Below are positions 1-63,366 of a stretch of 64,000 nucleotides of DNA, piece by piece. The notes beneath the pieces are model-generated. The model made no database searches. It was given only the letters and a program-made list of their open reading frames with translations, and was not told where the DNA came from. Numbering within the stretch: position 1 is the first letter of the stretch; the number at the start of each line of letters is the position of its first letter. Source of the DNA: Flavivirga jejuensis (GTDB taxonomy: Bacteria; Bacteroidota; Bacteroidia; Flavobacteriales; Flavobacteriaceae); NCBI RefSeq assembly GCF_030540765.1, contig NZ_JAUOEL010000002.1, positions 186,001 to 250,000 of the forward strand, given 5' to 3'. The position numbers and the translations under genes were made by a program.

Positions 1-118
1 GTCGTAAGCTTCGCTTATATCTTCGAACAAAATATATTTTGTTTTCGATAGCCTTCTGAATGACACCCGTATTACGTCATTTTATACGTTAGTTAAAATT
101 TTTAACACAGGTCTCAGA
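1..118 (-). repeat. Dispersed palindromic repeat, copy A (cut by window edge)
   Basis: This is the reverse-strand copy of the repeat family found at 11.6, 12.9, 27.0, 31.9, 43.0 and 63.2 kb. It contains the ACAAAATATATTTTGT palindrome module, the TTCTGAATGACACCCG joint, the TTACGTCATTT module and the AAAATTTTTAACACAGGTCT end. The left part is missing because the window begins here. The similarity to the other copies was read by eye and is near identical over most of this length. Confidence 0.85.
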
Positions 119-9131: not shown

Positions 9132-9305
9132 AAAAAATCTTAAAACTGACTATCCCTGTCTTTGCCAGTAGGTAGATCCGAGGTTAAACCTCGAGAAATT
9201 CTATAGATTAAATCTGGAATTTATATTTAATAACTTACAAATAAAGAATTTCTTGAAACCAACTATTTCTGCCTTTGCTGGCAGCTACGATGTACCCGCA
9301 TCTTT

Positions 9306-9408
9306 TATATATTTATTATTTACTTTTAGTTCACAAATCTTATTTGATAAATAGGAGTTCATGAATCTTCGATTTCTTTGCTCGTCCAAAGAAAAGTAAC
9401 AAACCTGC
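9306..9408 (-). repeat. About 105-bp repeat, inverted partner of 154-258
   Basis: Reverse complement of 154-258 with only a few differences (for example GAACTCC against GAATTCC). It marks the right side of the block from the DUF4198-like gene to the secreted lyase-like gene. Confidence 0.85.
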
Positions 9409-9614
9409 CTAAAAGACGGCAGGCAGGAGAAAAGACGCCCCTTCGAAGGAATTTCTTCTCGCGCTGCGCTTGAGAAGAACCAAGCCCAAATCTTCGCATC
9501 GCCCCACCACACCATCAAAGGCTATGCTCCTGGGTTTCGAAGTTTTTCCCCTTGCGCAACCTGGCTCCTTCGCTAAAACAGTCTACCAGACTGTTTCTTT
9601 ACGCTCGCCCCTCT

Positions 9615-11619: not shown

Positions 11620-12150
11620 CATCCAGAAGGTTATCGAAAACAAACTATATTTTGTTTGAAGATATAAGCGAAGCTTACGACTGAAGAAGCTCTTATATTT
11701 TAATGATTTATTTTTAAGATTCTTCGCTTTGCTACCATTGACGTTTTTTATAAATGATTAATTTTCAATCGTTTGTTCATTCAGAGCACAGCGAAGAATC
11801 TTTATTATTAATCTCTAAAGATTCTTCAGTTGTACCTCCCTGTCTGCCGATTCTTAGGCAGGCTTTTGAATGACACTAGCCTTTGCAAACATAGAATGAC
11901 AAATACTTTACTACCATTGACGTGTTTTATAAACAACTAACTTTCAAGCACTTGTCATTCAGAGCGCAGCGAAGAATCTTTATAATTAATCTCTAAAGAT
12001 TCTTCAGTCGTACCTCCCTGTCTGCCGATTCTTAGGCAGGCTTCTGAATGACACCCGTATTACGTCATTTCATCCGCTAGTTAAAATTTTTAACACAGAT
12101 CTCTGAATGAACAAAGCTCATCACTTTTTAAACAGTCCCGTTTAAATTAA
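11620..12150. repeat. Dispersed palindromic repeats, copy B (three modules in mixed orientation)
   Basis: The 834-bp gap between the PepSY gene and the fucosidase is mostly repeat. One plus-strand module (11630-11760: CAGAAGGTTATCGAAAACAA ... GCGAAGCTTACGACTGAAG) is followed by two minus-strand modules (about 11735-11900 and 11925-12110), each with the GAAGAATCTTTA / TAAAGATTCTTC hairpin and a CTGTCTGCCGATTCTTAGGC insert. It ends with CACTTTTTAAACAGTCCCG, a degenerate form of the CTGTCTAAAAA terminal repeat. 11357-11619 holds nothing recognisable. Confidence 0.8.
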
Positions 12151-12917: not shown

Positions 12918-13280
12918 GAGGCTGTCTAAAAAAGTATCATTCAGAAGGCTATCGAAAACAAAATATATTTTGTTTTAAGATATAAGCGAAGCTTACGACT
13001 GAAGAAGCTTTAGAGATTAATGATAAAGATTCTTCGCTTCCATTGACGTTATTTTTTAAGATGTTGTTTTTCATAACATTAAAAATATTCGATCATGTGG
13101 ATTCCTGCCTTCGCAAGAATGACAAAAAAACTACTAACCTGACCATACTCTATAACGTCATTTCCTCCACTTGATATTTTTTTTATCTCAGGTTTCTGAA
13201 TGACACAAACCTTTTACAAACATAGGATGGCAAACGCGTTACTCCGAATGACAAAATCCCTCACTTTTTTAGACAGCTCC
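12918..13280 (+). mobile_element. MITE-like element with terminal inverted repeats (copy C of the dispersed repeat)
   Basis: The left end GAGGCTGTCTAAAAAAGT (12918-12935) pairs with the right end ACTTTTTTAGACAGCTCC (13263-13280); CTGTCTAAAAAAGT is identical in both. Inside is the palindrome module (CTATCGAAAACAAAATATAT ...), the AGCGAAGCTTACGACTGAAG joint and part of the GATTCTTCGC module. There is no open reading frame. The ends resemble those of full-size insertion sequences. A target-site duplication was not obvious. Confidence 0.75.
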
Positions 13281-19830: not shown

Positions 19831-20363
19831 AGCTTTCGTTATTTCACCACTAGAATGAACATCTTAAGTGGACTGTTAGACTTGGTAATTCCATGCAACA
19901 AATAAAAATAGTGCTACCAGAAACTGATAACGTTCTATTTCATAAAGAAAATAAAGTAGATTAGGGTCATAATTTTTTAATCGAATTTTTCATGAAACAA
20001 TAACTTATTCATGTCTTTGAAACTCTAATACAAATGATCAAATGCAATCAAACACAAAAACAACAACTACCTAATAAACAATTAATTAATAAATATCACT
20101 GATAAAAATTATCTTAAACGGATTATTACATATATATGACGGATTAAACATATATTAGAGGGGGAAAAACTTTTCTTAAAGGGATTTTTATGTAAAAGAT
20201 TTTTATATTTATTAGTAGCCAATAGTGTAATGCTGTTACATTAACATTTAAAATTGTTGTTCTACTTATTATTCCCTCTTTTTTCAAATACTTTAATAAA
20301 ACATCTAATCTTTATTCAAAAAATATAGTTTAACTCCAGATTTTTAAATAAGTTTGTATAGTA
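19831..20363. other. Gene-free stretch before the TPP riboswitch
   Basis: About 530 bp of very AT-rich sequence without a convincing frame. It should contain the promoters of both the divergent HExxH gene and the thiamin operon, but no strong TAnnTTTG box was found by eye. Confidence 0.5.
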
Positions 20364-20443
20364 AACTTTAGGGGTGTTCCTTTTTTGGAACTGAGAGAGT
20401 CCCTTTGAACCTGATATGGTTAGTACCAACGAAGGAAAAAGTT
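20364..20443 (+). promoter_or_regulatory. TPP riboswitch (THI element)
   Basis: All parts of the thi-box are present in order: P1 AACTTT (20364) pairing with AAAGTT (20438), GGGGTGTTCC ... GGAACTGAGAGAG (P3 arm with CTGAGA), CCCTTTGAACCTGAT, a GGTTAGTACC stem, and CGAAGGAAA. It binds thiamin pyrophosphate and switches off the downstream thiamin operon. The gene order thiS to thiH directly after it agrees. Confidence 0.96.
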
Positions 20444-20778
20444 AGAAATGCATTTTACTTAATGCATTTACGTACTTCTTATTTAAGTACACATTATTCG
20501 TAATGGCTGTACTTCTATTTCAAAGCATTTTGTCTCTCCCTTTTTAGTTATAAAAAAATTCTTAAAACTGACTATTATCCCCGAGGGAAGCCATAGGGAT
20601 ATTTCGCCAGTTTCATTTTGCCTTTAGAGGCAAAAACCGATTTTTTTATTTTACCTCACCCAGAACTACAAAAAAAGTAGTTCTGACCTCTCTAAAGGAG
20701 AGAGGTGAATAGGAAACCCTGCCAACAGGCAGACACGACCCATGGTCGGAGAGTTTTTAGATTAAAAATGAATTATTT
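20444..20778 (+). promoter_or_regulatory. Long hairpin-rich leader between riboswitch and thiS
   Basis: 335 bases with no gene. TTTTGCCT/AGGCAAAA (20618-20637) followed 5 bases later by a T7 run is a candidate attenuator for the riboswitch. CAGAACTAC/GTAGTTCTG around an A7 loop and CCTCTC/GAGAGG follow. The early part (TTCTTAAAACTGACTAT) is a dispersed repeat also seen at 9129, which suggests the leader was lengthened by repeat insertion. Confidence 0.55.
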
Positions 20779-20982
20779 ATGATTAAAATATCAGTAAATG
20801 AGACGGTATTGGAGGTTGAAGAAACGACCACCATTTCTAAGCTACTTACTAAAATCAAGTCACCATTAGAGGGCATTGCTTTTGCTATTAACAATCAAAT
20901 TATTGCAAAAGAATTATGGGATTCCCATGGCTTCAAATCAAATGATCATGTTTTAATTATTCAGGCAACCCAAGGTGGTTAA
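20779..20982 (+). CDS. thiS: Sulfur carrier protein ThiS
   Basis: 67 aa with a beta-grasp pattern: MIKISVNETVLEVEETTTIS, then SPLEGIAFAINNQIIAKELW and DHVLIIQATQGG. The C-terminal Gly-Gly is the site where sulfur is carried as a thiocarboxylate for thiazole synthesis by ThiG. It needs an adenylating enzyme (ThiF/MoeB type), which is not in this cluster. First gene after the TPP riboswitch and its long leader. Confidence 0.95.
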   Translation: MIKISVNETVLEVEETTTISKLLTKIKSPLEGIAFAINNQIIAKELWDSHGFKSNDHVLIIQATQGG

Positions 20983-22872
<1,890 letters not shown>

Positions 22873-22875
22873 ACC

Positions 22876-23466
22876 ATGGTCGTAGTAATTGCTCCTGAAG
22901 AAGACATTCAAAATGAAATTTTAATTCTAAATCAGCTTTTCGAAGCTGGTTTAGAATACTATCACTTGAGAAAACCTGAAAAAAATCATCAAGAACATGT
23001 TGACTATTTAAACCAAATTGATGTTAAATATCACCATCGCATTGTAGTTCATTATTTTCATGAGTTAATCAATACATACGATTTAAAAGGCATTCATTTT
23101 CAAGAACAAAAAAGAAAAGACCATATAGATAATCCAGGACACTATTTTAAAGGATTGAATATGTACGGAAAAACCATTAGTAGTTCTTTTCATGAGCCTG
23201 ATGATTTAGAGGCCTGTGATTTTGAGTTTGACTATCATTTGCTCAGCCCAGTTTTTTCTTCAATATCAAAAAAAGGCTACGAAGGGAGAGGTTTTGATGT
23301 CAATCATATTGATAAACGCATTATTGGAATGGGTGGTGTTACGACAGATAATCTCAATGAATTTGACAAATTAGGTTTTAAAGGTGTTGGTGTTTTAGGC
23401 GGTATTTGGAATAGCAACAAACCTATAGATATTTTTAAAAAGATGAAAAATCATTTTGAGCGATAA
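22876..23466 (+). CDS. ThiE/TenI-like protein (second thiamin-phosphate-synthase paralog)
   Basis: 196 aa. It has the ThiE/TenI TIM-barrel layout: MVVVIAPEEDIQNEILILNQ, GLEYYHLRKPEK, KGIHFQEQKR, YHLLSPVFSSISKKGYEGRG and IIGMGGVTTDNL. Compared with the full ThiE at 24270 it lacks the NDx metal-binding motif and the QLRxK form of the first motif, and is shorter. TenI in Bacillus is a thiazole tautomerase acting between ThiG and ThiE, so that role is plausible here; a divergent thiamin phosphate synthase is the alternative. It lies 3 bases after thiC and directly touches thiD. Confidence 0.75.
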   Translation: MVVVIAPEEDIQNEILILNQLFEAGLEYYHLRKPEKNHQEHVDYLNQIDVKYHHRIVVHYFHELINTYDLKGIHFQEQKRKDHIDNPGHYFKGLNMYGKTISSSFHEPDDLEACDFEFDYHLLSPVFSSISKKGYEGRGFDVNHIDKRIIGMGGVTTDNLNEFDKLGFKGVGVLGGIWNSNKPIDIFKKMKNHFER

Positions 23467-24261
23467 ATGAACGACACTAAATACATAGTAACCATTGCTG
23501 GTCATGATCCTTCTAGCGGAGCAGGATTAACATCAGACATTAAAACATTTGAAGCACATGGTCTGTATGGTTTATCTGTTTGTACAGCTATTACCGTTCA
23601 AAATGATATTGATTTTAAACAATGTATCTGGACAGAAATTGATGTGATTATTGCTCAAATTGAAACCCTCTTTCAACGCTTTGATATCCACATTGTAAAA
23701 ATTGGAATCGTAGAATCCTGGGACATATTAAATCGTATTTTAAACAAATTACATGCATTAAATGCTGATGTTAAAATTGTTTTAGATCCGATTATCAAAG
23801 CAAGTGCTGGTTTTGATTTTCACGAAACCGAAAACCAAAGCTTACTAGACAACATATGGAAACAGTGTTTTATGGTTACTCCAAACTATGATGAAATTCA
23901 AAGTCTATATCCTCACTTAAATATTGAAAATACGATTGAACATATAGCTTCTTTCACTAATATTTATTTAAAAGGAGGCCATCGAACCGACAAAAAAGGT
24001 TGGGATGCCATATATCACAGTGGCATCGTTATGGTAAACATACCACCAAATACCGATAAAGTATATCAAAAACACGGAAGCGGTTGTGTACTCTCCGCTT
24101 CTCTGGCAAGTAATTTTGTTTTGGATATCGCATTAGAAGATGCAGCTAAAAACGCAAAACAGTATACAGAACAATTTTTAAATTCTGATGCCAGCCTGTT
24201 AGGAAAGCATAAATACAATACCTTTCCACCAACTCAAAGTATAAAATCCAATAGTCAATAA
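23467..24261 (+). CDS. thiD: Hydroxymethylpyrimidine (phosphate) kinase ThiD
   Basis: 264 aa, ribokinase-like fold. It phosphorylates HMP and HMP phosphate with ATP before coupling to the thiazole. Motifs seen are IAGHDPSSGAGLTSDIKTFE at the start, TAITVQNDI, VLDPIIKASAGFDF, MVTPNYDEIQSL and the catalytic anion-hole segment KHGSGCVLSASLASNF. The normal length is about 260-270 aa. It begins directly at the end of the previous gene and is 8 bases before thiE, so translation is probably coupled. Confidence 0.94.
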   Translation: MNDTKYIVTIAGHDPSSGAGLTSDIKTFEAHGLYGLSVCTAITVQNDIDFKQCIWTEIDVIIAQIETLFQRFDIHIVKIGIVESWDILNRILNKLHALNADVKIVLDPIIKASAGFDFHETENQSLLDNIWKQCFMVTPNYDEIQSLYPHLNIENTIEHIASFTNIYLKGGHRTDKKGWDAIYHSGIVMVNIPPNTDKVYQKHGSGCVLSASLASNFVLDIALEDAAKNAKQYTEQFLNSDASLLGKHKYNTFPPTQSIKSNSQ

Positions 24262-24269
24262 CCAGAATT

Positions 24270-24920
24270 ATGATTCCGAAACTACATTACATATCACAAG
24301 GAAATACAGGAAAAGAGCATCTTGAAAACATCAGAAAAGCATGTACTTCTGGAGTAGAATTGGTACAACTACGTTTAAAGAATTTGTCCGAAAAAAAGAT
24401 TTTAAAACTTGCTGAAGAAGCTAGAGAAATCACTGCACAATTTCAAACGCGCTTAATTATAAATGATCATTATAAAATTGCAAAAAAAATAAAAGCAGAC
24501 GGTGTGCATTTGGGGAAAAGTGATACCTGTCCAACCATTGCAAGAAAATTTTTAGAGACCTGGCAAATTGTTGGAGGTACCGCCAACACACTTGAAGACT
24601 GTGACATATTAATCGAAAAAAAAGTAGATTATATAGGTTTGGGACCTTTCCGCTTTACTACAACCAAAGACCATTTAAGTCCCGTTTTAGGAACAAACGG
24701 TTATCTAACCATTCTTGAAGCACTACAAACGGACATTCCAATTATTGCCATTGGTGGTATTACAATACATGATGTTCCCGAAATTTTAGAAACAGGCGTT
24801 TACGGTATAGCCGCTTCAGGAGAAATCACCAAAAATTTTAATAAAATTAATCCATTCAAAAAACTGTTAAACAGCCCTTCAGAGCAAGAACAGGTTTGGA
24901 ATCCAAATCAAAAAATATAA
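24270..24920 (+). CDS. thiE: Thiamin phosphate synthase ThiE
   Basis: 216 aa. It joins HMP pyrophosphate to thiazole phosphate to give thiamin phosphate. The family motifs are complete: [25 protein letters not shown] (NDx metal site; usually NDR), [25 protein letters not shown] and [13 protein letters not shown]. This is therefore the catalytic ThiE, while the paralog at 22876 is reduced. It sits in the middle of the thiamin operon, 1 base before thiG. Confidence 0.93.
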
Positions 24921-24921
24921 A

Positions 24922-25704
24922 ATGATAACAGATACACTTAAAATAGCCGACAAGACTTTTAAATCAAGGTTATTTACTGGAACAGGCAAGTTTAGCAGTA
25001 CTCATAACATGCGTGAAGCCATCGTAGCTTCAGAAAGTGAATTGGTTACTGTAGCGTTGAAACGTGTGGATCTGGAAAATGAATCGGACGATATGCTCCT
25101 TCACTTAAAAAGCAATCAGATAAATTTACTTCCAAACACATCTGGTGTAAGAACTGCTAAAGAAGCCGTATTTGCTGCCGAATTAGCCAGAGAAGCACTT
25201 CAAACAAATTGGGTAAAACTAGAAATACATCCAGATCCTAGATACCTCCTCCCCGATCCTATTGAAACCTTAAAAGCCGCTGAAACATTGGTGAAACTCG
25301 GTTTTGTAGTGATGCCTTATATCCATGCCGACCCCGTATTATGCAAGCGTCTGGAAGATGTAGGCGTGCCATGCGTCATGCCATTAGGTGCTCCTATTGG
25401 AAGTAACAAAGGCATTAAAACGCTTGAGTTTTTAGAAATTATCATCGAACAAAGTAACGTACCTGTAATAGTAGATGCGGGTATTGGTGCGCCCTCTCAC
25501 GCTGCATTTGCCATGGAATTAGGAGCAGATGCTGTTTTAGTAAATACCGCTATTGCTGTATCTCAAAATCCAGTAGACATGGGTATTGCTTTTAAAATGG
25601 CCGTTGAAGCTGGTAGAATGGCTTATAATGCAAAATTAGCCCCCATTAAAAATCAAGCGGAAGCTAGCAGCCCGCTCACCTCTTTTCTAAACGACTTAAA
25701 TTAG
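24922..25704 (+). CDS. thiG: Thiazole synthase ThiG
   Basis: 260 aa, TIM barrel. It forms the thiazole ring from DXP, dehydroglycine (from ThiH) and sulfur from ThiS. Blocks typical of the family are [79 protein letters not shown] and [20 protein letters not shown]. Length and order are normal, and thiH follows 8 bases later. Confidence 0.97.
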
Positions 25705-25712
25705 TTAAAACC

Positions 25713-26816
25713 ATGTCTTTTAAACATACATTTGAAAAATACGATTGGTCTACTTTAGAAAAAGAGATTTACGAAGTAACTGGTCAGGATGTAGAAAAAG
25801 TACTCCTTAAAGACAAAATAACGTTAGAAGATTTTAAAACACTAATTTCTCCAGCAGCTAAACCGTTTATAGAGCAGATGGCGCAACGAAGTCATGCCAT
25901 TACCAAAAAACGCTTTGGAAATACCATGCAAATGTATATCCCCATGTATTTATCTAATGAATGCCAAAATATTTGCACCTATTGTGGGTTTAGTATGGAT
26001 AATCGTATAAGAAGAAAGACGTTAAGTGACGCAGAAATATTAAAGGAAGTAGCACATATTAAAAAATTGGGATACGACCATATTCTTCTGGTAACAGGAG
26101 AAGCAAACAGAACGGTTGGCGTTCCATACATAAAACATGCTATAGACCTCATTAGATCTCAATTTTCAAATATCAGCATTGAAGTACAACCCTTAGATCA
26201 GGACGAATATGAAACCCTAATAAAATCTGGATTATATGCTGTTTTAGTATATCAGGAAACCTATCATAAAGCCACCTATAAAACACATCACCCAAAAGGT
26301 AGAAAATCGAATTTTGATTACCGATTAGATACACCAGATCGATTAGGTAAATCTGGGATTCATAAAATTGGTTTGGGAGCACTTTTTGGACTTGAAGATT
26401 GGCGGGTTGATAGTTTTTATACAGCTTTACATTTAAAATATTTGCAAAAAACATATTGGAAAACAAAATATTCCATGTCTTTCCCCAGACTTAGGCCCCA
26501 TCAAGGTGGGTTGGATCCCAAAGTAGAAATGACCGATACTGATTTAGTACAATTAATTTGTGCTTATAGATTACTAGATGAAGATGTTGAACTTTCCCTA
26601 TCCACTCGTGAAAGTGAAATCTTTAGAAATCACTGTATCCACTTAGGCATTACATCTATTAGTGCAGAATCTAGAACAAATCCAGGCGGTTACAGCGTGG
26701 CTCCTGAATCCCTCGAACAATTTGAAATTTCAGACGATCGTACAACCGAACAAATTAAACAAATGATTCAATCTCAGGGTTATGAAGTTGTCTGGAAAGA
26801 TTGGTTTAGCAAATAA
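25713..26816 (+). CDS. thiH: 2-iminoacetate synthase ThiH (radical SAM)
   Basis: 367 aa. It cleaves tyrosine to dehydroglycine and p-cresol by radical SAM chemistry, feeding ThiG. The CxxxCxxC motif is CQNICTYCGF near residue 87-96, followed by the family blocks DHILLVTGEANRTVG, SIEVQPLDQDEYETLIKSGL, VYQETYHKATY, SMSFPRLRPHQGG and LSTRESEIFRNHCI. The anaerobic-type tyrosine route (ThiH), not ThiO, is therefore used. It is the last gene of the cluster; what follows is a repeat region, where thiF might have been expected. Confidence 0.96.
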   Translation: MSFKHTFEKYDWSTLEKEIYEVTGQDVEKVLLKDKITLEDFKTLISPAAKPFIEQMAQRSHAITKKRFGNTMQMYIPMYLSNECQNICTYCGFSMDNRIRRKTLSDAEILKEVAHIKKLGYDHILLVTGEANRTVGVPYIKHAIDLIRSQFSNISIEVQPLDQDEYETLIKSGLYAVLVYQETYHKATYKTHHPKGRKSNFDYRLDTPDRLGKSGIHKIGLGALFGLEDWRVDSFYTALHLKYLQKTYWKTKYSMSFPRLRPHQGGLDPKVEMTDTDLVQLICAYRLLDEDVELSLSTRESEIFRNHCIHLGITSISAESRTNPGGYSVAPESLEQFEISDDRTTEQIKQMIQSQGYEVVWKDWFSK

Positions 26817-26974: not shown

Positions 26975-27290
26975 ATCTGCAAAAGGTTAGTGTCATCAGA
27001 GATCTGTGTTAAAAATTTTAACTAACGGATGAAATGACGTAATTGGGGTGTCATCCTATGTTTGCAAAAGGTTCGTGTCATTCAGAAGGAGGTACGACTG
27101 AAGAATCTATAGAAATTAATAATAAAGATTCTTCGCTGCGCTCTGAATGACAAATAATTAAAAATAAGTTACTTACAAAACACATCAATGATAGCATTCC
27201 GATAATTGTCGGAGTCGAAGAATCTCTAAAAACCAAACATTAAAGTTTTAAGAGATTCTTCAGTCATTCCTCCCTGTCTACCGATCATGC
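26975..27290 (+). repeat. Dispersed palindromic repeat, copy E, with a compensated hairpin
   Basis: It contains the GTGTTAAAAATTTTAACTAA, ATGACGTAATTGGGGTGTCA, GTCATTCAGAAGGAGGTACG and GATTCTTCGC modules. A second hairpin at 27217-27227 / 27251-27261 reads GAAGAATCTCT ... AGAGATTCTTC where other copies read GAAGAATCTTTA ... TAAAGATTCTTC; both arms changed together. Downstream, 27291-27707 is very AT-rich with no gene. Confidence 0.8.
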
Positions 27291-28004: not shown

Positions 28005-28180
28005 AAGGTATTAATTCTCAGGGCAAAACCAGAATCCAATAGTAAGAATCGCCCAAAAGTCGAAGTCTTAAACCCAGACCCCGCTAAATACTGAAATACT
28101 GAAACAAGTTCAGCACTGGGCAAGTTCAGCACAGGAAGCGTAATTAGCCTGCCACGACAAAGGCGTGGACTAATAATAAC
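28003..28180 (+). repeat. CCACG-hairpin repeat, copy 2
   Basis: AAGGTATTAATTCTCAGGGC ... AATCGCCC ... CTGAAACAAGTTCAGCAC, GGAAGCGTAATTAGCCTG, then CCACGACAAAGGCGTGG with stem CCACG/CGTGG. It has an internal duplication of CAAGTTCAGCAC. It overlaps the stop codon of the EF-hand gene by one or two bases. Confidence 0.75.
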
Positions 28181-31748: not shown

Positions 31749-31790
31749 AATAATAGTGACCTTTTTTTATTTAATTGGTTGAATAGCAGG

Positions 31791-31828
31791 AAAGGCTTCA
31801 TGATAATCATGAAGCTTTTCTTTTTTTA
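31791..31828 (+). terminator. Intrinsic terminator of the VTC-CotH operon
   Basis: A perfect 9-bp stem GCTTCATGA/TCATGAAGC with loop TAA, extended by flanking A and T residues, ends in a TTTTCTTTTTTT run, 43 bases past the CotH stop codon. Confidence 0.88.
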
Positions 31829-31920: not shown

Positions 31921-32336
31921 GAGACATCTGCTAATATTTTAGCAAACGGATGTGATGACGTAATTGGGGTGTCATTCAGAAGGAGGTACGACTGAAGAAT
32001 CTTTAGAAATTAATAATAAAGATTCTTCGCTGTGCTCTGAATGACAAACAATTGAAAGTTAGCTATTTATAAAACACGTCAATGGTAGATCAGTGTTAAA
32101 AATTTTAACTAGCGGATGAAATGACGTAATTGGGGCGTCATTCAGAAGGCTATCGAAAACAAAATATATTTTGTTTGAAGATATAAGCGAAGCTTACGAC
32201 TGAAGAATTTTTAGAAATTAATTGTAAAGATTCTTCGCTGTGCTCTGAATGACAAACAATTGTAAATTAACAACTTATAAAACACGTCAATGGGAGGAGG
32301 TACGACGGAAGAATCTTTATAATTAACGTGAATCTT
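31921..32336 (+). repeat. Dispersed palindromic repeat, copy F (two tandem units)
   Basis: This is the best preserved copy. Unit 1 has GTCATTCAGA (31971) and TCTGAATGAC (32036) around the hairpin GAAGAATCTTTA (31994) / TAAAGATTCTTC (32017). Unit 2 repeats it with the longer ACAAAATATATTTTGT palindrome arm. Both end in TTTATAAAACACGTCAATGG. A third fragment (GGAGGTACGACGGAAGAATC) closes the array. No coding potential was seen. Confidence 0.88.
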
Positions 32337-41312: not shown

Positions 41313-41700
41313 TTTTATTACTCCACGCTTATTGGCGTAGCAGGAAAACTCAATACTTGGGAAGTTAAGTCTGCAAGACACATTAAAATTGTAAGTTGAA
41401 CCACGCCTTTGTCATGTTGCAGTATGCCCACAAATATGATGTCCAAATGATATTTGTAAAGTTTTAAAGGCTCAAAAATAATTGTTAATACAGAACCCCA
41501 GACCTTCTTTAAAAGATGTAAGTACACTGTAACTTTGTTATAACAGACTAATCCCATTTTCTGTATTGAACTTGCCAGTGCTGAACTTGTTTCAGTATTT
41601 CAGTATTTAACAAGATTTAGGCTTAACACCTTTTATTTCTCAATATCCCAATGTATAACAAATTTGTATTTCAAATAATTTCTATTATAAAAACTAATTA
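41313..41700. repeat. Repeat-derived gap before tetR
   Basis: 41411-41522 is the inverted partner of 9615-9722. 41568-41645 is an inverted partial copy of the CCACG-repeat family (TGAACTTGCCAGTGCTGAAC, TTGTTTCAGTATTTCAGTAT, ending CACCTTTTATT). A short reverse open frame across the first part has no support and is not counted. Confidence 0.65.
41568..41645 (-). repeat. CCACG-hairpin repeat, copy 4 (partial, inverted)
   Basis: The minus strand reads AAAAGGTGTTAAGCCTAAAT ... AAATACTGAAATACTGAAAC, then AAGTTCAGCACTGGCAAGTT, matching the middle of copy 2 including its duplicated ATACTGAA. The CCACG hairpin end is absent. Confidence 0.7.
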
Positions 41701-42981: not shown

Positions 42982-43179
42982 TAAAGAGACTGTCTAAAAA
43001 AGGGTATTCTGAATATTACCTTCTAAACAAAGTATATTTTGTTTAGAAGGTAAAAGCGAAGCCGTAAAGAATTTCTAAAAAATTTAATGTTTTGATTTTT
43101 CACTTCGTTCTCAATGACACTCCCCCCCTTTTGCAAACATAGGTTGGCAAAGTTCATCACTTTTTAGACAGACTCTTTA
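42982..43179 (+). mobile_element. MITE-like element, copy D of the dispersed repeat family
   Basis: 198 bp. Left end TAAAGAGACTGTCTAAAAA and right end (reverse strand) TAAAGAGTCTGTCTAAAAA differ at one base. Inside is a perfect 15-bp hairpin, TACCTTCTAAACAAA / TTTGTTTAGAAGGTA (43017-43052), then AAAGCGAAGCC and GCAAACATAGGTTGGC. It has no coding capacity. Confidence 0.8.
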
Positions 43180-48799: not shown

Positions 48800-48859
48800 A
48801 TCTGTTTTTTAGACTAAAAAAAAAATCAATCAAAAAACGAACAGTAAATCATAAAAATC

Positions 48860-51265
48860 ATGTTTAGAAATTATTTTAAAATAGCATGGAGAAATCTTTT
48901 AAAGAACAAGGTATATTCATTTATAAACATATCTGGTTTAGCTGTTGGTATGGCGGCAACAATAATGATAGGTTTATGGATAACTGATGAATTAAATTAT
49001 AATAATCACTTTAAAAAGAAAGATGTTATAGCCCAAGTATATCAAAGTCAAGCAATTAATGGAGATGTTGGTACAGGGCCTGCAATTCCTAGACCTTTGG
49101 AATTTATATTACGAGAGGAATACGCTGATAATTTTAAGCATATTGTTATGTCTTCTTGGGAACATCCTAGGTATTTAAAATATGGCGAAACGAATATCTA
49201 TACTAAAGGAAATGCGATGCAAGAAGGCGGTCCAGAAATGCTAGACCTCAAAATAATTGAAGGGGTTAAAGATGGACTTAAAGAAAAGAATTCTATAATG
49301 CTTTCTAAAACTTCTGCTAAAACATTGTTTGGGTCTGATGCTGCTGTGGGTAAAATAATAAAGGTTAACAATTTAGATGATTTAATAGTTACTGCTGTTT
49401 ATAACGATATTCCTGAGAATAATTCATTTAATGAAATGGATTATTTAATACCGTGGAAATATTATGTAACAAAACAACCATGGTTAGAAAATGCTATAGA
49501 CCATTGGGGAAATAATTCCTTTCAAATGTTTGTTCAAATTAATGAAAACACAACCATGGAAGCAGTGACATCTAAAATTATAGATGTTAAGAAAAATGCA
49601 TCAGTTGATGAAGCAGAGTTTAATCCTCAAATATTCTTATTTCCTATGCAAGATTGGTACCTAAGAAGCGATTTTGAAAATGGTGTTCAATCTGGAGGGC
49701 GCATAGAAAATGTATGGTTGTTTGGTATAATTGGATTATTCATTTTACTACTAGCTTGTATTAATTTTATAAATTTAAGTACAGCCCGTTCTGAAAAACG
49801 AGCTACTGAAGTTGGTATTAGAAAATCAATTGGTTCACAACGAGGTCAGTTAATATTTCAATTTTTAAGCGAGTCTTTTTTAATTGTTATTTTATCATTT
49901 GTATTTGCCATAGGTATCGTATTACTCTTTTTAAATGGATTTAATAATTTGGCTAGTAAAGTCATTGTATTTCCGTGGACTAATATTCAATTTTGGCTAG
50001 TAGCGTTAGTGTTTATAATTGTTACGGCTTTCTTATCAGGTAGCTATCCTGCAATATATTTATCATCCTTTAATCCAGTAGCAGTTCTAAAAGGTGCTTT
50101 TAATGCTGGTCGTTACTCCTCTTTACCTAGAAAAATCCTGGTTGTTACGCAGTTTACAGTATCTATAGCCTTGATTATTGGTACGCTAGTAGTAATGAAT
50201 CAAATTCAATTTAGTAAAGATCGCCCTGTTGGATATGATAAAGAAGGCTTAATCCAAATCCCGGTAATGAGTAACGAATTTATTGGTAAAGCCGAGGTTA
50301 TGAGAACGCAATTTATAGCTTCTGGTGGCGCTATAGAAATGGCAACAACAAGTAGTCCTACAACAAATGTTTGGTCAAATAGATCTGGTTATACATGGGA
50401 AGGAAAACCTGTTGGCTTTCAAGAAGATTTGGCTTACACTAATGTTTCTTACGAGTTTGTGAAAACCTTGGGCGCAAAAATAATTCAAGGACGTGGTTTT
50501 TCACGTGATTTCCCATCAGATTCCTTAGGTGTAATTCTAAATAAAACTGCTGTTGAGTACATGGGAATTAAAGATCCGATAGGAAAGTATATTAGAGATG
50601 CTGATACTGATGTCGAAAATCGAGAGCCACCTTTAAAAATTATCGGAGTCATAGATGATATTATTATGCAATCACCTTACAGCCCTGTAAAACAATCGAT
50701 GTATGCTTTTGATAATGTTGGTACTGCAAGCTTCTATAATCTAAGATTAAATCCAGAAAAAAGTACTGCTAAAAACTTAGAAATAATTAAAAATGTCTTT
50801 AAAAAGAATTTCCCAGATACCCCCTTCGATTTTCAATTTGTAGATGAAGAATACGGAAGAAAATTTAGTTCAGAAGAACGCATTGCAAGTTTGGCTAGAG
50901 TATTTACTGCATTAGCTATTTTTATTAGTTGTTTGGGGTTATTTGGATTGGCATCATTCGTAGCAGAGCAACGCACTAAAGAAATTGGTGTTAGAAAAGT
51001 ATTAGGAGCATCCATCAGTCAATTATGGTTATTACTTTCAAAAGATTTCATCACGCTTGTAGTTATTGCACTCTTGATTGCTTCTCCTTTTGCCTATTAT
51101 ATTATGGGGCAATGGTTACAAAAGTTTAGCTATAGAGTATCTGTAGGTTGGGATGTGTTTGCAATTGCATGTTTTGGGGCACTTATTATCACACTTATCA
51201 CTGTAAGTTTCCAAGCCATCAAAGCAGCAATTGTAAACCCTATAAAAAGTTTAAGAACAGAATAA
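48860..51265 (+). CDS. FtsX/MacB-type ABC permease 1
   Basis: 801 aa, with the doubled layout of large Bacteroidota MacB-like permeases: N-terminal FRNYFKIAWRNLLKNKVYSF and TM1, a ~230-residue periplasmic domain, FtsX helices (WLFGIIGLFILLLACINFIN, then EVGIRKSIGSQRGQLIFQF), a second periplasmic domain, and a second FtsX block (FISCLGLFGLASFVAEQRTK, EIGVRKVLGAS). It ends NPIKSLRTE. It is closest to permease 4 (56115), sharing LFPM-DW-LRS and the VWLFGIIGLF segment. The gene lies 60 bases after the ATPase. The substrate is not known; this family exports peptides or lipids or handles envelope stress. Confidence 0.92.
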   Translation: MFRNYFKIAWRNLLKNKVYSFINISGLAVGMAATIMIGLWITDELNYNNHFKKKDVIAQVYQSQAINGDVGTGPAIPRPLEFILREEYADNFKHIVMSSWEHPRYLKYGETNIYTKGNAMQEGGPEMLDLKIIEGVKDGLKEKNSIMLSKTSAKTLFGSDAAVGKIIKVNNLDDLIVTAVYNDIPENNSFNEMDYLIPWKYYVTKQPWLENAIDHWGNNSFQMFVQINENTTMEAVTSKIIDVKKNASVDEAEFNPQIFLFPMQDWYLRSDFENGVQSGGRIENVWLFGIIGLFILLLACINFINLSTARSEKRATEVGIRKSIGSQRGQLIFQFLSESFLIVILSFVFAIGIVLLFLNGFNNLASKVIVFPWTNIQFWLVALVFIIVTAFLSGSYPAIYLSSFNPVAVLKGAFNAGRYSSLPRKILVVTQFTVSIALIIGTLVVMNQIQFSKDRPVGYDKEGLIQIPVMSNEFIGKAEVMRTQFIASGGAIEMATTSSPTTNVWSNRSGYTWEGKPVGFQEDLAYTNVSYEFVKTLGAKIIQGRGFSRDFPSDSLGVILNKTAVEYMGIKDPIGKYIRDADTDVENREPPLKIIGVIDDIIMQSPYSPVKQSMYAFDNVGTASFYNLRLNPEKSTAKNLEIIKNVFKKNFPDTPFDFQFVDEEYGRKFSSEERIASLARVFTALAIFISCLGLFGLASFVAEQRTKEIGVRKVLGASISQLWLLLSKDFITLVVIALLIASPFAYYIMGQWLQKFSYRVSVGWDVFAIACFGALIITLITVSFQAIKAAIVNPIKSLRTE

Positions 51266-51267
51266 TC

Positions 51268-53667
51268 ATGATTAGAAACTATTTTAAAATAGCAATAAGA
51301 AATCTACGAAAAAACAAATTATACGCAAGCATTAATATTTTTGGCTTGGCTATTGGTTTAACTTCTTGCATGCTCATTGGGCTTTATATTGTTAACGAAC
51401 TGAGTTATGACAAATTTAATAACAAAGCCAATCGCATTGTACGTGTTACAATGGAATATAAAATGTCGAACGAAATTAATTATGCAGCAACAACTGGAAC
51501 CAAAGTAGGCCCAGAGTTTGCGAGGACTTTTCCTAAAATAGAAGAATACACTAGAACATTTATTAGCACTAGTAATGTAGAATACGGTAACAAACTTTTT
51601 AATGAGGATAGAATTCTTTTTGCAGACCCTTCCTTCTTCAACATATTTTCTTTTAACCTCTTACAGGGGAATGCTGAAACTATTCTAGATGCACCAAACA
51701 AAATTGTGCTTACAGAATCCATGGCAAAAAAATATTTTGGTGATGAAAACCCTATTAATAAAACCATAACAGTTATTGGCAAGGAGATGATTGTTTCAGG
51801 GGTTAGTGAAGACAGTCCTAAAAATTCACAAATTAAGTTTGATTTTGTAACTCAATTCTTAAACCTTGGAAATAAAGTAAAAAGAGAGCAATGGTGGTCA
51901 GCTAATTGGATAACCTATTTTTTGTTGAACACTGGTGATGATATAACTCAATTTGAACAGCAAATAAATACTTATATGCAAACGGATGCTATTAGAAGTC
52001 AAGCAGGTTTAGAAGGCGAGAGTTATTTAAATTACCATTTGCAACCACTATTGGATGTCCATTTAAAATCTGATTTGGCTGGTTTCGAACCAAATGGAAA
52101 CATGACATACATATACATATTCATTATAATTTCCTTACTTATTTTATTAATTGCAAGTGCCAATTACACCAACCTTGCAACAGCTCAATCCACTTCTAGA
52201 AGTGGCGAGATTGGAATGCGAAAGGTAATGGGAGCTAGTAAGCGTCAAGTATTCATACAATTTATTAGTGAATCTACAACCATTACATTTATTGCAGCTG
52301 TCTTAGCTTTATTATTATGTGTCCTGGTGCTGCCATATTTTAACTCTATAACAGGGAAAGCGTTTACCAAATTAGAGTTACTTCAACCAATACCAATGCT
52401 ATTACTTTTTTTATTCAGTGTAATAGTGAGTTTCCTTGCGGGTTTGTATCCTGCACTTGTTTTATCGGGAACTAACGTTATGAGTGTTCTTAAAAAAGGA
52501 TTCAGAAGTCCTGGAGGAAATGGAATATTAAAAAAATCCTTAATAGTAGGTCAATTTTCGATTTCTGTATTCCTTATTATTTACACGATGGTTATCCTTC
52601 AGCAAATGGATTTTATCCAAAACAAAAATTTGGGATATAATAAAGACCATGTGGTTGTATTACCTATAAGCAGAACTATGTTTGAGAATTTCGAAACCTT
52701 TAAATATGGTTTAGAACAAATTTCTGGAGTGCAATCAGTTACAGCATCTTATGAAACTCCTAAGTTTGTAAAATGGGGAGATGGTGTAAATGTGGTAGAC
52801 GAAAACGGAGAGCATACTATCGATATCAATGCAATGCCTGTAGATTTAAATTTTGTGAACACCTTAGGCATGAAAATGGCTGCTGGACGTGATTTTATAC
52901 AATCAGATTTTGCTTTAATGGATACCACTAATAATAGTGTTAACTACAAACAACCTTATTTAATAAACGAAACCTTAGCAAAACAAATTGGTTGGTCTCC
53001 AGAAGAAGCTATTGGGCGTACTATTGAAAATAGAGCCTCAGGCCCCGTATTAGGTGTTGTAAAAGATTTTAATTTTAGCAGTTTGCATGAGCCAGTTGGT
53101 CCATTGCTTATGTTTTTAGGTCGTAATTTTTCAAGAAATTATATGGTTCGAATTTCTGATTTAGATGTTCAAGGTACTTTGGGGCACTTGGAAACTCTTT
53201 GGAATGAACGTACTAATAGCAGACCCTTTAATTACCATTTCTTAGATGAAGATTATGACACGCTTTACCAAACAGAACAGCGCAGTGCAATTCTTTTTAG
53301 TGTAGCAGCAGGACTTGCTGTTATTCTTGCTTGCTTAGGTTTGTTTGGTCTAGCAGCTTTCACCATAGTACAACGTACTAAAGAAATTGGTATTAGAAAA
53401 GTCTTAGGAGCAAACCTTAGTAATATCATACTTTTAATAAGTAAGAACTTTTTAGTATTAGTAACAATAGCTATCATTATTGCATCACCATTCGCTTTTT
53501 TCGCTGCAAAAAAATGGTTGCAGAATTTCGCATACAGAATTGAACCCGAATGGTCCGTGTTTATTATTCCAGTTATTGTGACCTTGCTTGTCACATTTTT
53601 AACAGTTGGTTATCATTCTATTAGAGCTGCCATTGTAAACCCTATTAAAAGTTTAAGAACTGAATAA
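51268..53667 (+). CDS. FtsX/MacB-type ABC permease 2
   Basis: 799 aa from the ATG at 51268 (MIRNYFKIAIRNLRKNKLYA); a longer frame starts 120 bases upstream inside permease 1 and is rejected because it removes the family start. It has the same two-block layout, with NYTNLATAQSTSRSGEIGMR, KVMGASKRQVFIQF in the first FtsX part and FGLAAFTIVQRTKEIGIRKV in the second, and ends NPIKSLRTE. It begins 2 bases after permease 1 with a near-identical junction sequence. More divergent from permeases 1 and 4 than they are from each other. Confidence 0.92.
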   Translation: MIRNYFKIAIRNLRKNKLYASINIFGLAIGLTSCMLIGLYIVNELSYDKFNNKANRIVRVTMEYKMSNEINYAATTGTKVGPEFARTFPKIEEYTRTFISTSNVEYGNKLFNEDRILFADPSFFNIFSFNLLQGNAETILDAPNKIVLTESMAKKYFGDENPINKTITVIGKEMIVSGVSEDSPKNSQIKFDFVTQFLNLGNKVKREQWWSANWITYFLLNTGDDITQFEQQINTYMQTDAIRSQAGLEGESYLNYHLQPLLDVHLKSDLAGFEPNGNMTYIYIFIIISLLILLIASANYTNLATAQSTSRSGEIGMRKVMGASKRQVFIQFISESTTITFIAAVLALLLCVLVLPYFNSITGKAFTKLELLQPIPMLLLFLFSVIVSFLAGLYPALVLSGTNVMSVLKKGFRSPGGNGILKKSLIVGQFSISVFLIIYTMVILQQMDFIQNKNLGYNKDHVVVLPISRTMFENFETFKYGLEQISGVQSVTASYETPKFVKWGDGVNVVDENGEHTIDINAMPVDLNFVNTLGMKMAAGRDFIQSDFALMDTTNNSVNYKQPYLINETLAKQIGWSPEEAIGRTIENRASGPVLGVVKDFNFSSLHEPVGPLLMFLGRNFSRNYMVRISDLDVQGTLGHLETLWNERTNSRPFNYHFLDEDYDTLYQTEQRSAILFSVAAGLAVILACLGLFGLAAFTIVQRTKEIGIRKVLGANLSNIILLISKNFLVLVTIAIIIASPFAFFAAKKWLQNFAYRIEPEWSVFIIPVIVTLLVTFLTVGYHSIRAAIVNPIKSLRTE

Positions 53668-53697
53668 AAAAATCATCAATCAAAAACAATAGATATC

Positions 53698-56112
53698 ATG
53701 CTTAGAAATTATTTCAAAATAGCTTGGAGAAACCTTATTAAAGACAAAATGTTCACCATATTAAACGTTACTGGACTTTCGGTAGCTTTTGGTATTGCAA
53801 TACTCTTAGCAATGGCAGGTTTTTTTGATTTATCGTATGACAAATTCCATACAAATGCAGATCACCTTTACAAGGTATATTCCGTTCAACAAACCTCAAA
53901 AGGTCCAGAAGCGAGTGTAAGTCAGCCTGCCCCCTTGTTAGAAGCTCTAAAAGCAGAAGTACCAGGTATTGAAAAGGCATCTCGGTATTTACAACAGGAG
54001 GCCATAGTTTCCTTTAACGAAAAAGAAATTAATATGGATGCTGTTTGGGTAGATGCTGATTTTTTCGACATGTTTACCTTCCCTTCATTAAAAGGAAAAA
54101 TAAATAATCCTTTAGAAAAACAATCTTCTATAGTGATTACAGAAAGTACCGCCAAGAAACTTTTTGGAGACGAAAAAGCCATTGATAAGACCGTTCAAAT
54201 ATTGATAAACGGTAAGGATCACCCCTTTAACATAAGTGCTGTTGTTGCAAACAATTTACCTCAAAGCACCTTGGAATTTGAATTGGCCATTCCTTTTGAA
54301 AAGGAAGCAGACTACCAAAACAACAAGGATACTTGGGATTCAAGCTACCATGATGTTTATATACAGTTAGCAAATGGTGTGTCTCCCAAACAATTTGAGA
54401 AAGCGACCCGTGCTTTGGTAGATCTGAATCTTCAGGAACAAATTGCAAACGCTAAGCGAGATGGCGCACAGACCAATGCTGATGGGAGATATTATAAATT
54501 TGATATTTTGCCTGTTACGGATGTAAAATTCACCAAATTCAAAAATGGTTATGCTGAAGTGAGCAGAAGTACCCCGTATTTAGTTTTGGGCATTGCTTTT
54601 TTAATTCTATTTATTGCTTGCGTGAACTTTATCAATATGAGCATAGCAAAAAGTGGACAACGCCTTAAAGAAATAGGCATGCGTAAAACATTGGGGGCGA
54701 AAAGGAAGCAATTGTTTCTTCAATTTTGGAGTGAGAGTTTTTTTGTTTTTTGTATTTCCGTTCTATTAGGATTGATGTTGAGTATCCTTTTGATAGATTC
54801 GTTTAAAACCATTTTCAGAACTGCAGTTTCCTTTGATTTATTGATATCTCCAACGATTATCCTATCCTTTTTGTCCACTGTTTTACTCATCACTGTTTTG
54901 GTAGGTGGTTACCCAGCAATACTACTCAGTAAGTTGGGAACCATCCAATCTTTAAAAGGAAAACTTGACCATTCTGGAAAAAATAAGGTTCGAGATGGGC
55001 TCATTGTAATACAATTCGGTATTGCTATTTTATTAATAAGTGGCACATTAGTACTAAGAGAGCAATTAGATTTTATGCGAAATAAAGACCTAGGTTTTAA
55101 TAAAGAACAAGTACTATCCTTTCCATTATACGGAAAAAAAGATAGTCATCAAGCACTCCAGTTGTTGCGAAATGAATTAGCCAGCAATCCAGATATTTTA
55201 GAAATAACAGGAGCAGATAATAATTTAGGACTTGGTAAGGACGGTAGTCTCTCCAAGAGTATATATGGTTTTGAATATAAAGAGCGGGTGATATACACTA
55301 ATTCTTTGACGGTAGACTATGATTATGTAGAAACCTTAGACTTGAAAATCGTTAAAGGCAGAAACTTTAAAAGAGGTTATGCCAATGATAGTTTAAGTGT
55401 GGTCATTAATGAAGCAATGGTTAAAGAACTTGGTGAAAAAGATCCTTTAACAGCATATGTTACTGTTAGTGATAGTATAAGATATCCCGTAATTGGTGTT
55501 GTAAAAGACTATAATTTTGAGAAATTAGATAAGTCCATTCAACCCATAACCATGTTTTTGAATAACAACGAAGGTTTGTACTATGCTTATGTAAAAGTAG
55601 CTCCAACCAATATGGCAAAATCCTATGATGTTATAAAACAGGCTTGGAAAAAGATAGCTCCCAATGCAACGTTCTTAGGTTCTTTTCTGGATGAAAACAT
55701 CAACAGAACTTTTAGAAAAGAAGAAAAGATAGCCAAAATGATTACTGCAGGATCTATTATAGCTATCGTATTAAGTTGTATTGGTCTTTTTGCCATTTCT
55801 TTATTACTCATTACCCAACGAACCAAAGAAATTGGAGTCCGTAAAATAATTGGCGCAAGTATCACTAATATTACTTTTTTATTAACCAAAGATTTCTTGA
55901 AATTAGTTGGGGTTTCCTTTTTAATAGCAACCCCTATTGCTTGGTGGTTTATGAAAGAATGGTTACAAAACTATCCTTTTAAAATCGATTTAAGCATATG
56001 GTCTTTTCTAGCGGCAGGTATTTTGACTACCATAATTGCTTTACTAACCTTAGGAGTTAAAACCTTAAAAGTGGCTACACAAAACCCAGTAAAAAGCATT
56101 AAAACAGAATAA
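53698..56112 (+). CDS. FtsX/MacB-type ABC permease 3
   Basis: 804 aa. MLRNYFKIAWRNLIKDKMFT begins the same family start, and FVNFINMSIAKSGQRLKEIG-like sequence (NFINMSIAKSGQRLKEIGMR, KTLGAKRKQLFLQF) marks the first FtsX block; CIGLFAISLLLITQRTKEIG and VRKIIGASITNITFLLTKDF mark the second. It ends NPVKSIKTE. It starts 30 bases after permease 2. It is the most divergent of the five in its periplasmic domains. Confidence 0.92.
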   Translation: MLRNYFKIAWRNLIKDKMFTILNVTGLSVAFGIAILLAMAGFFDLSYDKFHTNADHLYKVYSVQQTSKGPEASVSQPAPLLEALKAEVPGIEKASRYLQQEAIVSFNEKEINMDAVWVDADFFDMFTFPSLKGKINNPLEKQSSIVITESTAKKLFGDEKAIDKTVQILINGKDHPFNISAVVANNLPQSTLEFELAIPFEKEADYQNNKDTWDSSYHDVYIQLANGVSPKQFEKATRALVDLNLQEQIANAKRDGAQTNADGRYYKFDILPVTDVKFTKFKNGYAEVSRSTPYLVLGIAFLILFIACVNFINMSIAKSGQRLKEIGMRKTLGAKRKQLFLQFWSESFFVFCISVLLGLMLSILLIDSFKTIFRTAVSFDLLISPTIILSFLSTVLLITVLVGGYPAILLSKLGTIQSLKGKLDHSGKNKVRDGLIVIQFGIAILLISGTLVLREQLDFMRNKDLGFNKEQVLSFPLYGKKDSHQALQLLRNELASNPDILEITGADNNLGLGKDGSLSKSIYGFEYKERVIYTNSLTVDYDYVETLDLKIVKGRNFKRGYANDSLSVVINEAMVKELGEKDPLTAYVTVSDSIRYPVIGVVKDYNFEKLDKSIQPITMFLNNNEGLYYAYVKVAPTNMAKSYDVIKQAWKKIAPNATFLGSFLDENINRTFRKEEKIAKMITAGSIIAIVLSCIGLFAISLLLITQRTKEIGVRKIIGASITNITFLLTKDFLKLVGVSFLIATPIAWWFMKEWLQNYPFKIDLSIWSFLAAGILTTIIALLTLGVKTLKVATQNPVKSIKTE

Positions 56113-56114
56113 TC

Positions 56115-58505: not shown

Positions 58506-58553
58506 ATCATCAACGTACACTGAATTCGTTTCAGCATCAAAAAACAAAAAATC

Positions 58554-63180: not shown

Positions 63181-63366
63181 ACCATTGACGTGTTTTATAA
63201 ATACTTAATTTTCAATCACTTGTCATTCAGAGCATTCCGACAATTGTCGGAGTCGAAGAATCTTTATCATTAATCCCTAAAGATTCTTCAGTCGTACCTC
63301 CTCTGAATGACACCCCTATTACGTCATTTCATCCGCTAGTTAAAATTTTTAACACAGGTCTCGAAC
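63181..63366 (-). repeat. Dispersed palindromic repeat, copy G
   Basis: Reverse-strand copy with ACCATTGACGTGTTTTATAA, GTCATTCAGAGC, the palindrome CCGACAATTGTCGG, the hairpin GAAGAATCTTTA (63255) / TAAAGATTCTTC (63278), GTCGTACCTCC, TCTGAATGAC and AAAATTTTTAACACAGGTCT. 63367-63475 has no gene; it is the noncoding side of the IS110 element. Confidence 0.85.

Follow-up and report, generated by a model that had tools for sequence, protein, structure and literature searches.

The window, i.e. the whole stretch of DNA that was analysed, comprises 64,000 nucleotides of the Flavivirga jejuensis genome (C12:186001-250000; host genome 6.02 Mb, 33 contigs), and its intergenic gaps contain copies of a repeat made up of small hairpins, which are collected in Table 1. 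The array at 31921-32336 is termed the index array. The original prediction was of a strongly folded family dispersed over seven loci, in both orientations and always between genes, with a palindromic core nested inside a longer palindrome and with exchangeable side modules. By searching the window for the core GAAGAATCTTTA with at most one mismatch we obtained 17 matches, whereas 100 shuffles gave 1.27 on average and never as many as 17; all 17 fall within five of the seven predicted intervals, confirming the family. The remaining two intervals (1-118 and 42982-43179) are also related, with no core present at 42982-43179, and the copies occur in both orientations and with the two side modules, as described. 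The position between genes holds as well, with no half-unit falling inside a called frame of at least 100 aa in the window and 27 own-genome loci. The family extends beyond the seven loci, since a whole-genome search with the 77-base unit gave at least 54 matches at E ≤ 0.001, some of which are partial and one pair of which overlaps; 40 of the 154 first-look candidates were scored, and more copies probably exist.

Table 1. Copies and parts of the hairpin repeat in the window (window coordinates)
Feature	Position	Strand	Remark
Cut half-unit, ATATAT palindrome arm, then GTTAAAATTTTTAAC flanking module	1..118	-	continues leftward past window edge
Mosaic of one arm-bearing unit plus inverted dimers 11777-11876 and 11955-12054	11620..12150	-	
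Exact pan-bacterial 26-mer GTCATTCAGAGCGCAGCGAAGAATCT, one half-hairpin	11954..11979	+	C12:197954-197979; also a skeleton match
Outer-hairpin element GAGGCTGTCTAAAAAAGT ... ACTTTTTTAGACAGCTCC with nested unit	12918..13280	.	
Array holding inverted dimer 27077-27151	26975..27290	+	
Second exact 26-mer copy in the window	27126..27151	-	C12:213126-213151; also a skeleton match
Index array: dimer 31971-32045, ATATAT-arm dimer 32138-32252, partial half near 32308	31921..32336	+	
Best-defined unit: opposed half-hairpins, short conserved spacer	31971..32045	+	DNA fold -16.5 kcal/mol, z -6.6
Outer-hairpin element, terminal inverted repeats, ACAAAATATATTTTGT-type ATATAT arm, no 12-bp core	42986..43175	+	
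One half-hairpin skeleton within interval 42982-43179	43094..43118	-	skeleton pattern search
Inverted dimer, one half with CCGACAATTGTCGG loop, flanking modules	63181..63366	-	

It is noted that a further exact 26-mer is located 28-53 bases to the left of the window start (C12:185948-185973), beside the interval 1-118. Within the element at 12918-13280 the core matches at 13001-13012 (one mismatch) and at 13024-13035, and at 13100-13123 of the same element GATTCCTGCCTTCGCAAGAATGAC represents, on the complementary strand, a different type of GTC-tagged hairpin (GTCATTC...GAATC). Apart from the hairpin repeat, the window holds a TPP riboswitch (RF00059) at the start of 20360-26816, preceding a gene run that we take to resemble a thiamine operon; nothing else in the window reaches the Rfam gathering score than this riboswitch (20360-20454). 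At 48846-60926 five long paralogous genes, presumably encoding ABC-type permeases, stand in a row and have repeated DNA stretches in common. Two inverted repeat pairs, 155-300 / 9265-9410 (146 nt, 87%) and 28065-28119 / 41575-41629 (55 nt, 85%), are unrelated to the hairpin repeat. A weak SusD match beside a frame of 1054 aa would point to Bacteroidota as the phylum of the host.

With 30 loci set side by side, together with the column conservation, the own-genome unit is sharply delimited at GTGTCATTCAGA on its left and ends near CGTCAATGGTAG on its right, with a conserved spacer between both halves. Each half-unit has the form GTCATTC-loop-GAAGAATCT, and the dimer consists of two such halves opposed to each other. 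Among 133 half-units, obtained as loose-pattern matches in the window and in the own-genome loci L001-L060, the loop is of the GCGNAGC type in 42, GGAGGTACGACT in 42, the ATATAT palindrome arm in 15, CCGACAATTGTCGG in 13 and of other or doubtful type in 21. By this tally, what had been described as exchangeable side modules are the loop types of one half-unit. What had been described as a nested palindrome is a pair of opposed half-hairpins; the features are present as predicted, with this different reading of their architecture. Additional GTCAT-bounded modules link the units into mosaics in the own-genome copies, and because the flanks are mosaics, a MAFFT alignment of long flanks was uninformative and the flanks were read by eye.

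The half-hairpin is distributed far more widely than the host genus. The pattern GTCATTCNGAGCGNAGCGAAGAATCT, which has 24 fixed letters, was scanned against a species-level genome collection (257 billion bases) and is present in at least 119 stretches, as compared with about 0.002 chance matches by simple arithmetic. By our own tally of 80 titles among the matches listed, the 26-mer occurs in 16 phylum-level groups (Nitrospirae, Acidobacteria, Bacteroidota, Nitrospinota, Omnitrophota, Fibrobacter, Chloroflexi, Firmicutes, Ignavibacteria/Chlorobi, Deltaproteobacteria, Planctomycetes, Cyanobacteria, Helicobacter, Luteimonas, Verrucomicrobia and Poribacteria), with two more unclassified. Many of the hosts are metagenome bins, and the isolates, by title, include Calothrix, Hymenobacter, Mucilaginibacter, Helicobacter marmotae, Luteimonas and a Lachnospiraceae strain. 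In 35 genomes, reached via 36 loci and motif-bearing by choice, the relaxed pattern (at most one mismatch) occurs 4 to 271 times per genome and its reversed form 0 times. Of 148 genomes from the phylum, 31 contain the relaxed 26-mer, with 42 sites in the own genome and none in the 14 genomes from other genera of the own family in that draw. The unit itself is found in all 11 same-genus relatives and weakly in 6 of 28 genomes outside the genus.

The whole dimer, as predicted, folds far better than its shuffles (DNA z -6.6, RNA z -7.1). Single half-hairpins, with the DNA parameters used, fold no better than theirs (z -0.02 and +1.12). It is noted that GNA loops and tandem G-A pairs characterise DNA mini-hairpins of high stability, and since the DNA energy model credits such loops and pairs little, the case for the hairpin is made by covariation. 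In the fold used, the stem has nine positions, seven of which pair and two of which are G-A. In 52 further halves from the 119 loci, which the pattern does not fix and which carry at most three changes, T-A forms the third stem pair in 27 and C-G in 21, with C-A in 2, A-A in 1 and T-G in 1, while about 16 T-A, 10 C-G, 13 C-A and 12 T-G would be expected under independence. The G-A mismatch is kept in all 52 of these halves and the A-G mismatch in 50, and the GNA three-base loop is present in 173 of 186 halves, 134 of these being pattern-fixed. Among 36 distinct halves free of the pattern, there are 22 double-change cells versus 6.4 in the shuffles (none of 500 as high), and sliding the structure abolishes the covariation; here the first stem pair is A-T in 32 and the second is T-A in 33 and C-G in 3.

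A harder test was made with the skeleton GTCATNNNGANNGNANNGANNNATC (GTC-AT-NNN-GA-NN-GNA-NN-GA-NNN-AT-C), in which the five inner stem pairs are left free. For 44 distinct skeleton sequences from 12 genomes, among the matches listed, there are 62 double-change cells versus 20.7 in the shuffles (none of 500 as high), and the covariation score is 0.510 versus 0.186 shuffled, with slid structures giving 0.002-0.202. Two of the five measures, namely the pairs changed on both sides and the pair types, are little or not above the shuffles, the standard pair types numbering 7 versus 7.2 shuffled for the 36 halves and 12 versus 11.4 for the 44 sequences among the matches listed. The fifth stem pair is unpaired in 13 of these 44 listed sequences, and at this position the variant of the window shows A-A. 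As the pairs within a half differ from the pairs of the long dimer fold, the covariation supports the small hairpin, and the half-unit is a small hairpin. A second family in Luteimonas marina, with 215 sites and none for the reversed control, shares the skeleton and differs in its stem letters.

The skeleton is present in 85 of 198 genomes of the phylum, at 1022 sites (summed rows), with 2 sites for the reversed form and about 5 expected by chance. In a separate draw it is present in 5 of 19 own-family members of other genera, one of which, G270, carries the letters of the own repeat family. On plasmids there is no match at E 0.001, a level that a single half could hardly reach, and at E 1 there are five records, from Planktothrix and Calothrix. 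The relaxed motif is also contained in 117 IMG/VR viral-contig stretches (loci from L260 on). Direct tandem arrays, rather than inverted dimers, are seen at G193:C6:300366-312490 (L417), at a spacing of about 126 or 152 bases, and at G270:C1:1514755-1533210 and 2444358-2446281, with steps near 120 bases in places. In Planktothrix agardhii plasmids (L410:15456-17203, L411:15422-17043 and L412:6483-8164) long genes that are annotated MmeI or PglX (hypothetical in L412) and stand beside DISARM genes contain hairpins of the GTCATCCTGAGTGAAACGAAGGATCT type, with 3, 2 and 2 copies across the three strains and local differences.

We then consider the tag and the tail of the hairpin. Immediately ahead of GTC stands T in 100 and C in 21 of 126 exact halves (another 8 were dropped for short flanks). 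In three other sets, made up of skeleton copies, T or C is found there in 38 of 39, 23 of 24 and 22 of 22, and all 22 copies of the last set, the own family, have TGTC. The tail, where left free, is in the own family CTT in 18 of 22 copies, CTC in 3, CAA in 1 and CCA in none. The CCA tail is present in 12 of 39 skeleton copies in 30 loci of the wider set, where it is the commonest tail yet in the minority, and in 6 of 24 skeleton copies in the 119 loci with the pattern-exact halves excluded; the 126 exact halves were left out of the tail count because their CT is fixed by the pattern. An inverted partner lies within 140 nt downstream of 67 of the 126 exact halves and upstream of 12, as compared with 1 in the shuffled control.

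Although the original prediction knew of no description of the repeat, its kind has been described as the CGTC/TGTC-tagged REP superfamily defined by Di Nocera et al. 2013 (PMC3733652). According to the text of that paper, these REPs have CGTC, TGTC or CCTC tags, stems of 8-9 bp starting with A-T and loops of 4-5 bases, mostly have CCA tails, form inverted dimers, lack a transposase and occur in five phyla; the agent that copies them was left unanswered there. As far as this description goes, the present repeat is alike in its unpaired CGTC/TGTC tag, in its short stem starting with A-T, its short loop and its inverted dimers, and also in being mostly intergenic and away from promoters, having no linked transposase and being patchily spread over distant phyla. 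It is unlike them in that the own tail is CTT and never CCA, which is common in skeleton copies elsewhere, in that our fold has a three-base GNA loop, for which the paper's counting may differ, and a stem broken by two G-A mismatches, and in that the own units stand in long mosaics with exchangeable arms and the groups of hosts exceed the paper's five phyla. As judged from the text description, part of the skeleton copies likely overlap with the CGTC REP families, and since skeleton copies elsewhere carry CCA tails, a common superfamily is likely. The own family shares the tag, the dimers and the lack of a linked transposase, may or may not agree in the stem and the loop, and does not have the CCA tail, and we therefore regard it as a variant of the CGTC REP kind rather than a proven member.

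Other known repeats were also compared. The BIMEs of enterobacteria are, as here, mosaics of REP hairpins and other intergenic modules; they differ in hairpin, tag and host, and here an outer inverted-repeat element contains some of the mosaics. The stem and loop of the dRS3 repeats of Neisseria differ from those of the present hairpin. The dRS3 repeats, which are CGTC-1 in PMC3733652, are, from what is described of them, alike in having a GTC-tagged hairpin and in being clustered. A general tool (PMC12306157) reports, by its description, REP-like sequences in many phyla. In the literature, searched by sequence strings, no description of the repeat is found in titles and the starts of abstracts, figures and supplements lying outside that scope, and a paper on a mycobacterial repeat matched through an 11-base piece inside a PCR primer; strings of spurious peptides gave nothing relevant within the same kind of text.

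The placement of the copies bears on whether they are transcription terminators or stabilisers of mRNA 3' ends that are retained by selection, a reading that we consider unlikely. The gaps holding own-genome units are convergent in 18 and tandem in 11 of 29 cases and never divergent, as compared with a background of 3 convergent, 17 tandem and 5 divergent of 25, and none of 21 gaps holding the outer hairpin in the own loci is divergent. This placement is as expected of terminators, and selection against harmful insertions would likewise keep copies away from promoters. Across the many phyla of the 119 loci the trend is less marked (26 convergent, 44 tandem and 11 divergent of 81, versus 36, 135 and 47 of 218), and 29 of the matches there lie inside called frames. 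An RNA role, one of the readings offered originally, is possible, but at the index locus a terminator-like hairpin (31788-31822) already follows the upstream gene, and the index array stands beyond it. In the same-genus genome G005 this hairpin has a counterpart, by eye, without the array: the orthologous gap contains no repeat and is 328 bp long versus 621 bp here, with the flanking genes kept at 88% and 81% aa identity. The repeat has thus been gained or lost at this gap, and its absence in G005, at one locus of one relative, could be a loss; one genome per species was compared, and in the stretches from the other ten relatives the gene order around the index gap is not conserved. The patchy presence of the 26-mer in genomes of the phylum is unlike that of a needed function. 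In the Planktothrix plasmids no empty site within a species is cleanly readable, the copies there standing in arrays and partly inside genes.

The terminator reading suits the inner units less well than the outer hairpin. As RNA, the bare form of this outer hairpin has a fold of -30.4 kcal/mol (z -8.9); it is followed by TTT in 16 of 22 cases and preceded by AAA in 13 of 22, and it reads as a second, terminator-like element, namely a mobile two-way terminator where hairpin units have landed. Its sequence GAGGCTGTCTAAAAAGTG and the complement occur at 95 sites with at most three mismatches, versus 2 for the reversed control. In the fetched loci these form 22 paired elements, from the bare hairpin of 49 bp up to 503 bp, the larger ones containing nested units. 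By this evidence it may be supposed that the family is one of MITEs, in which a DDE transposase moves the element proper, marked by the GAGGCTGTCTAAAAAGTG inverted ends, with the hairpin units as its cargo. We regard this as quite improbable. Both outer ends lie within about 600 bp at only 5 of 30 unit loci (6 of 30 at five mismatches or fewer, with a single end in 4 and 7), and neither end is present at the index array. Moreover, the only forward-reverse pair 0.9-3 kb apart among the matches listed, C1:52386-55084, spans an evident 409-bp element and begins at a site with three mismatches, so that no full-length parent element is seen among these matches. Of one transposase family, 30 PF13751 loci of the genus (36 matches) include none with a pair of outer ends and seven with one loose site at five mismatches; an IS1182 label for the outer ends was accordingly dropped. 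Note also that the listed 26-mer halves stem from other phyla, which lie outside the scope of the outer-end search, and that in 13 dimers (strict pattern, from the 119 loci and not own copies) no target-site duplication is found among direct repeats of 1-9 bases.

An associated transposase sharing the ends, either RAYT or DDE, had been suggested for a check, and none has been found, none of the 30 PF13751 loci being bounded by a pair of outer ends and no linked RAYT being seen among the Y1 loci examined. That the copies are ordinary REPs driven by a RAYT located elsewhere in each genome is doubtful in our view. It is in keeping with this reading that 28 of 35 motif-bearing genomes have Y1_Tnp matches, with 11 in the own genome, and that in Luteimonas marina a RAYT-like gene (L234:1144-2028, minus) has a related dimer (L234:1029-1096) about 45 bp past its end. 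The dimer stands on one side of the gene only, however, in a genome with 215 such hairpins, and the tag is GTC and not GTAG. The other 7 motif-bearing genomes, some of which are incomplete bins, have no Y1 match. The motif, at no more than three mismatches, is found at 1 of 41 Y1 loci (11 own and 30 of the 105 matches elsewhere), with two further loci having it only at 5-6 mismatches, and from density alone about 1.9 copies would be expected near the 30 non-own loci; RAYT as a linked mobiliser was rejected, there being no enrichment at the 11 own loci and the 30 of 105 matches from 35 other genomes. Among Bacteroidota, Y1 is present in 5 of 6 genomes having several 26-mer copies versus 21 of 40 without the 26-mer, a weak difference, and several of those 40 do contain the looser skeleton. 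A RAYT-like frame in G193, 2 kb from a motif copy, is unflanked by the repeat. Among the clusters listed for gene families near the motif (2843 frames from 119 loci; 3-12 loci per cluster) there is no clear transposase, and, judged visually from the initial residues of a single member each, these clusters presumably represent housekeeping and regulatory proteins.

Of the three readings offered originally, that of a REP-like element is best supported, by the tag, the hairpin, the inverted dimers, the intergenic arrays and the absence in the sister species. Specifically, we propose that the repeat is probably REPIN-like, that is, non-autonomous DNA that a trans-acting enzyme would copy in the form of single-stranded hairpins. 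In the published descriptions consulted for REPINs and RAYT/TnpA-REP (PMC3116915, PMC2817692, PMC6006769), two opposed short hairpins with an internal spacer form the copied unit, mismatches occur within the stems and action on a single strand is proposed, as would be the case here; the GTAG/GTGG tag of those systems is absent here, where the tag is (C/T)GTC, and no linked RAYT was found.

In the model, the elementary unit is a hairpin of 25-26 nt with an unpaired 5' tag (C/T)GTC, followed by a stem of A-T, T-A, three freely exchangeable pairs, two G-A mismatches and two more pairs, which is closed by the GNA three-base loop and has a short unpaired tail beginning with C. The copied unit would be two such hairpins with the tags outward and a short spacer between. 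The hairpin may form in single-stranded DNA, and an enzyme supplied in trans would cut and rejoin at the tag, by analogy with TnpA-REP (RAYT) acting on GTAG-tagged REPs. In the host genome the loops would have diversified, giving rise to the exchangeable arms, and the units would have been joined into mosaics, with purifying selection presumably leaving the copies behind genes. With this model, the copies at the index locus are explicable without any function for the host.

In a broader and more tentative form of the proposal, which we put forward as a possibility, one hairpin design, whose invariant G-A mismatches and GNA loop would best suit single-stranded DNA, would be common to many phyla and be copied in trans by one widely held enzyme, with the CGTC REPs forming a part of it and the mosaic of the window being a lineage-specific outgrowth. 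The strict conservation over many phyla, together with the covarying free stem pairs, points to one recognition mechanism. The hairpin would provide a short probe for capture of the enzyme, with clear control mutants in the G-A pairs, the loop and the tag, and a repeat that clutters the intergenic DNA of many genomes would thereby be explained.
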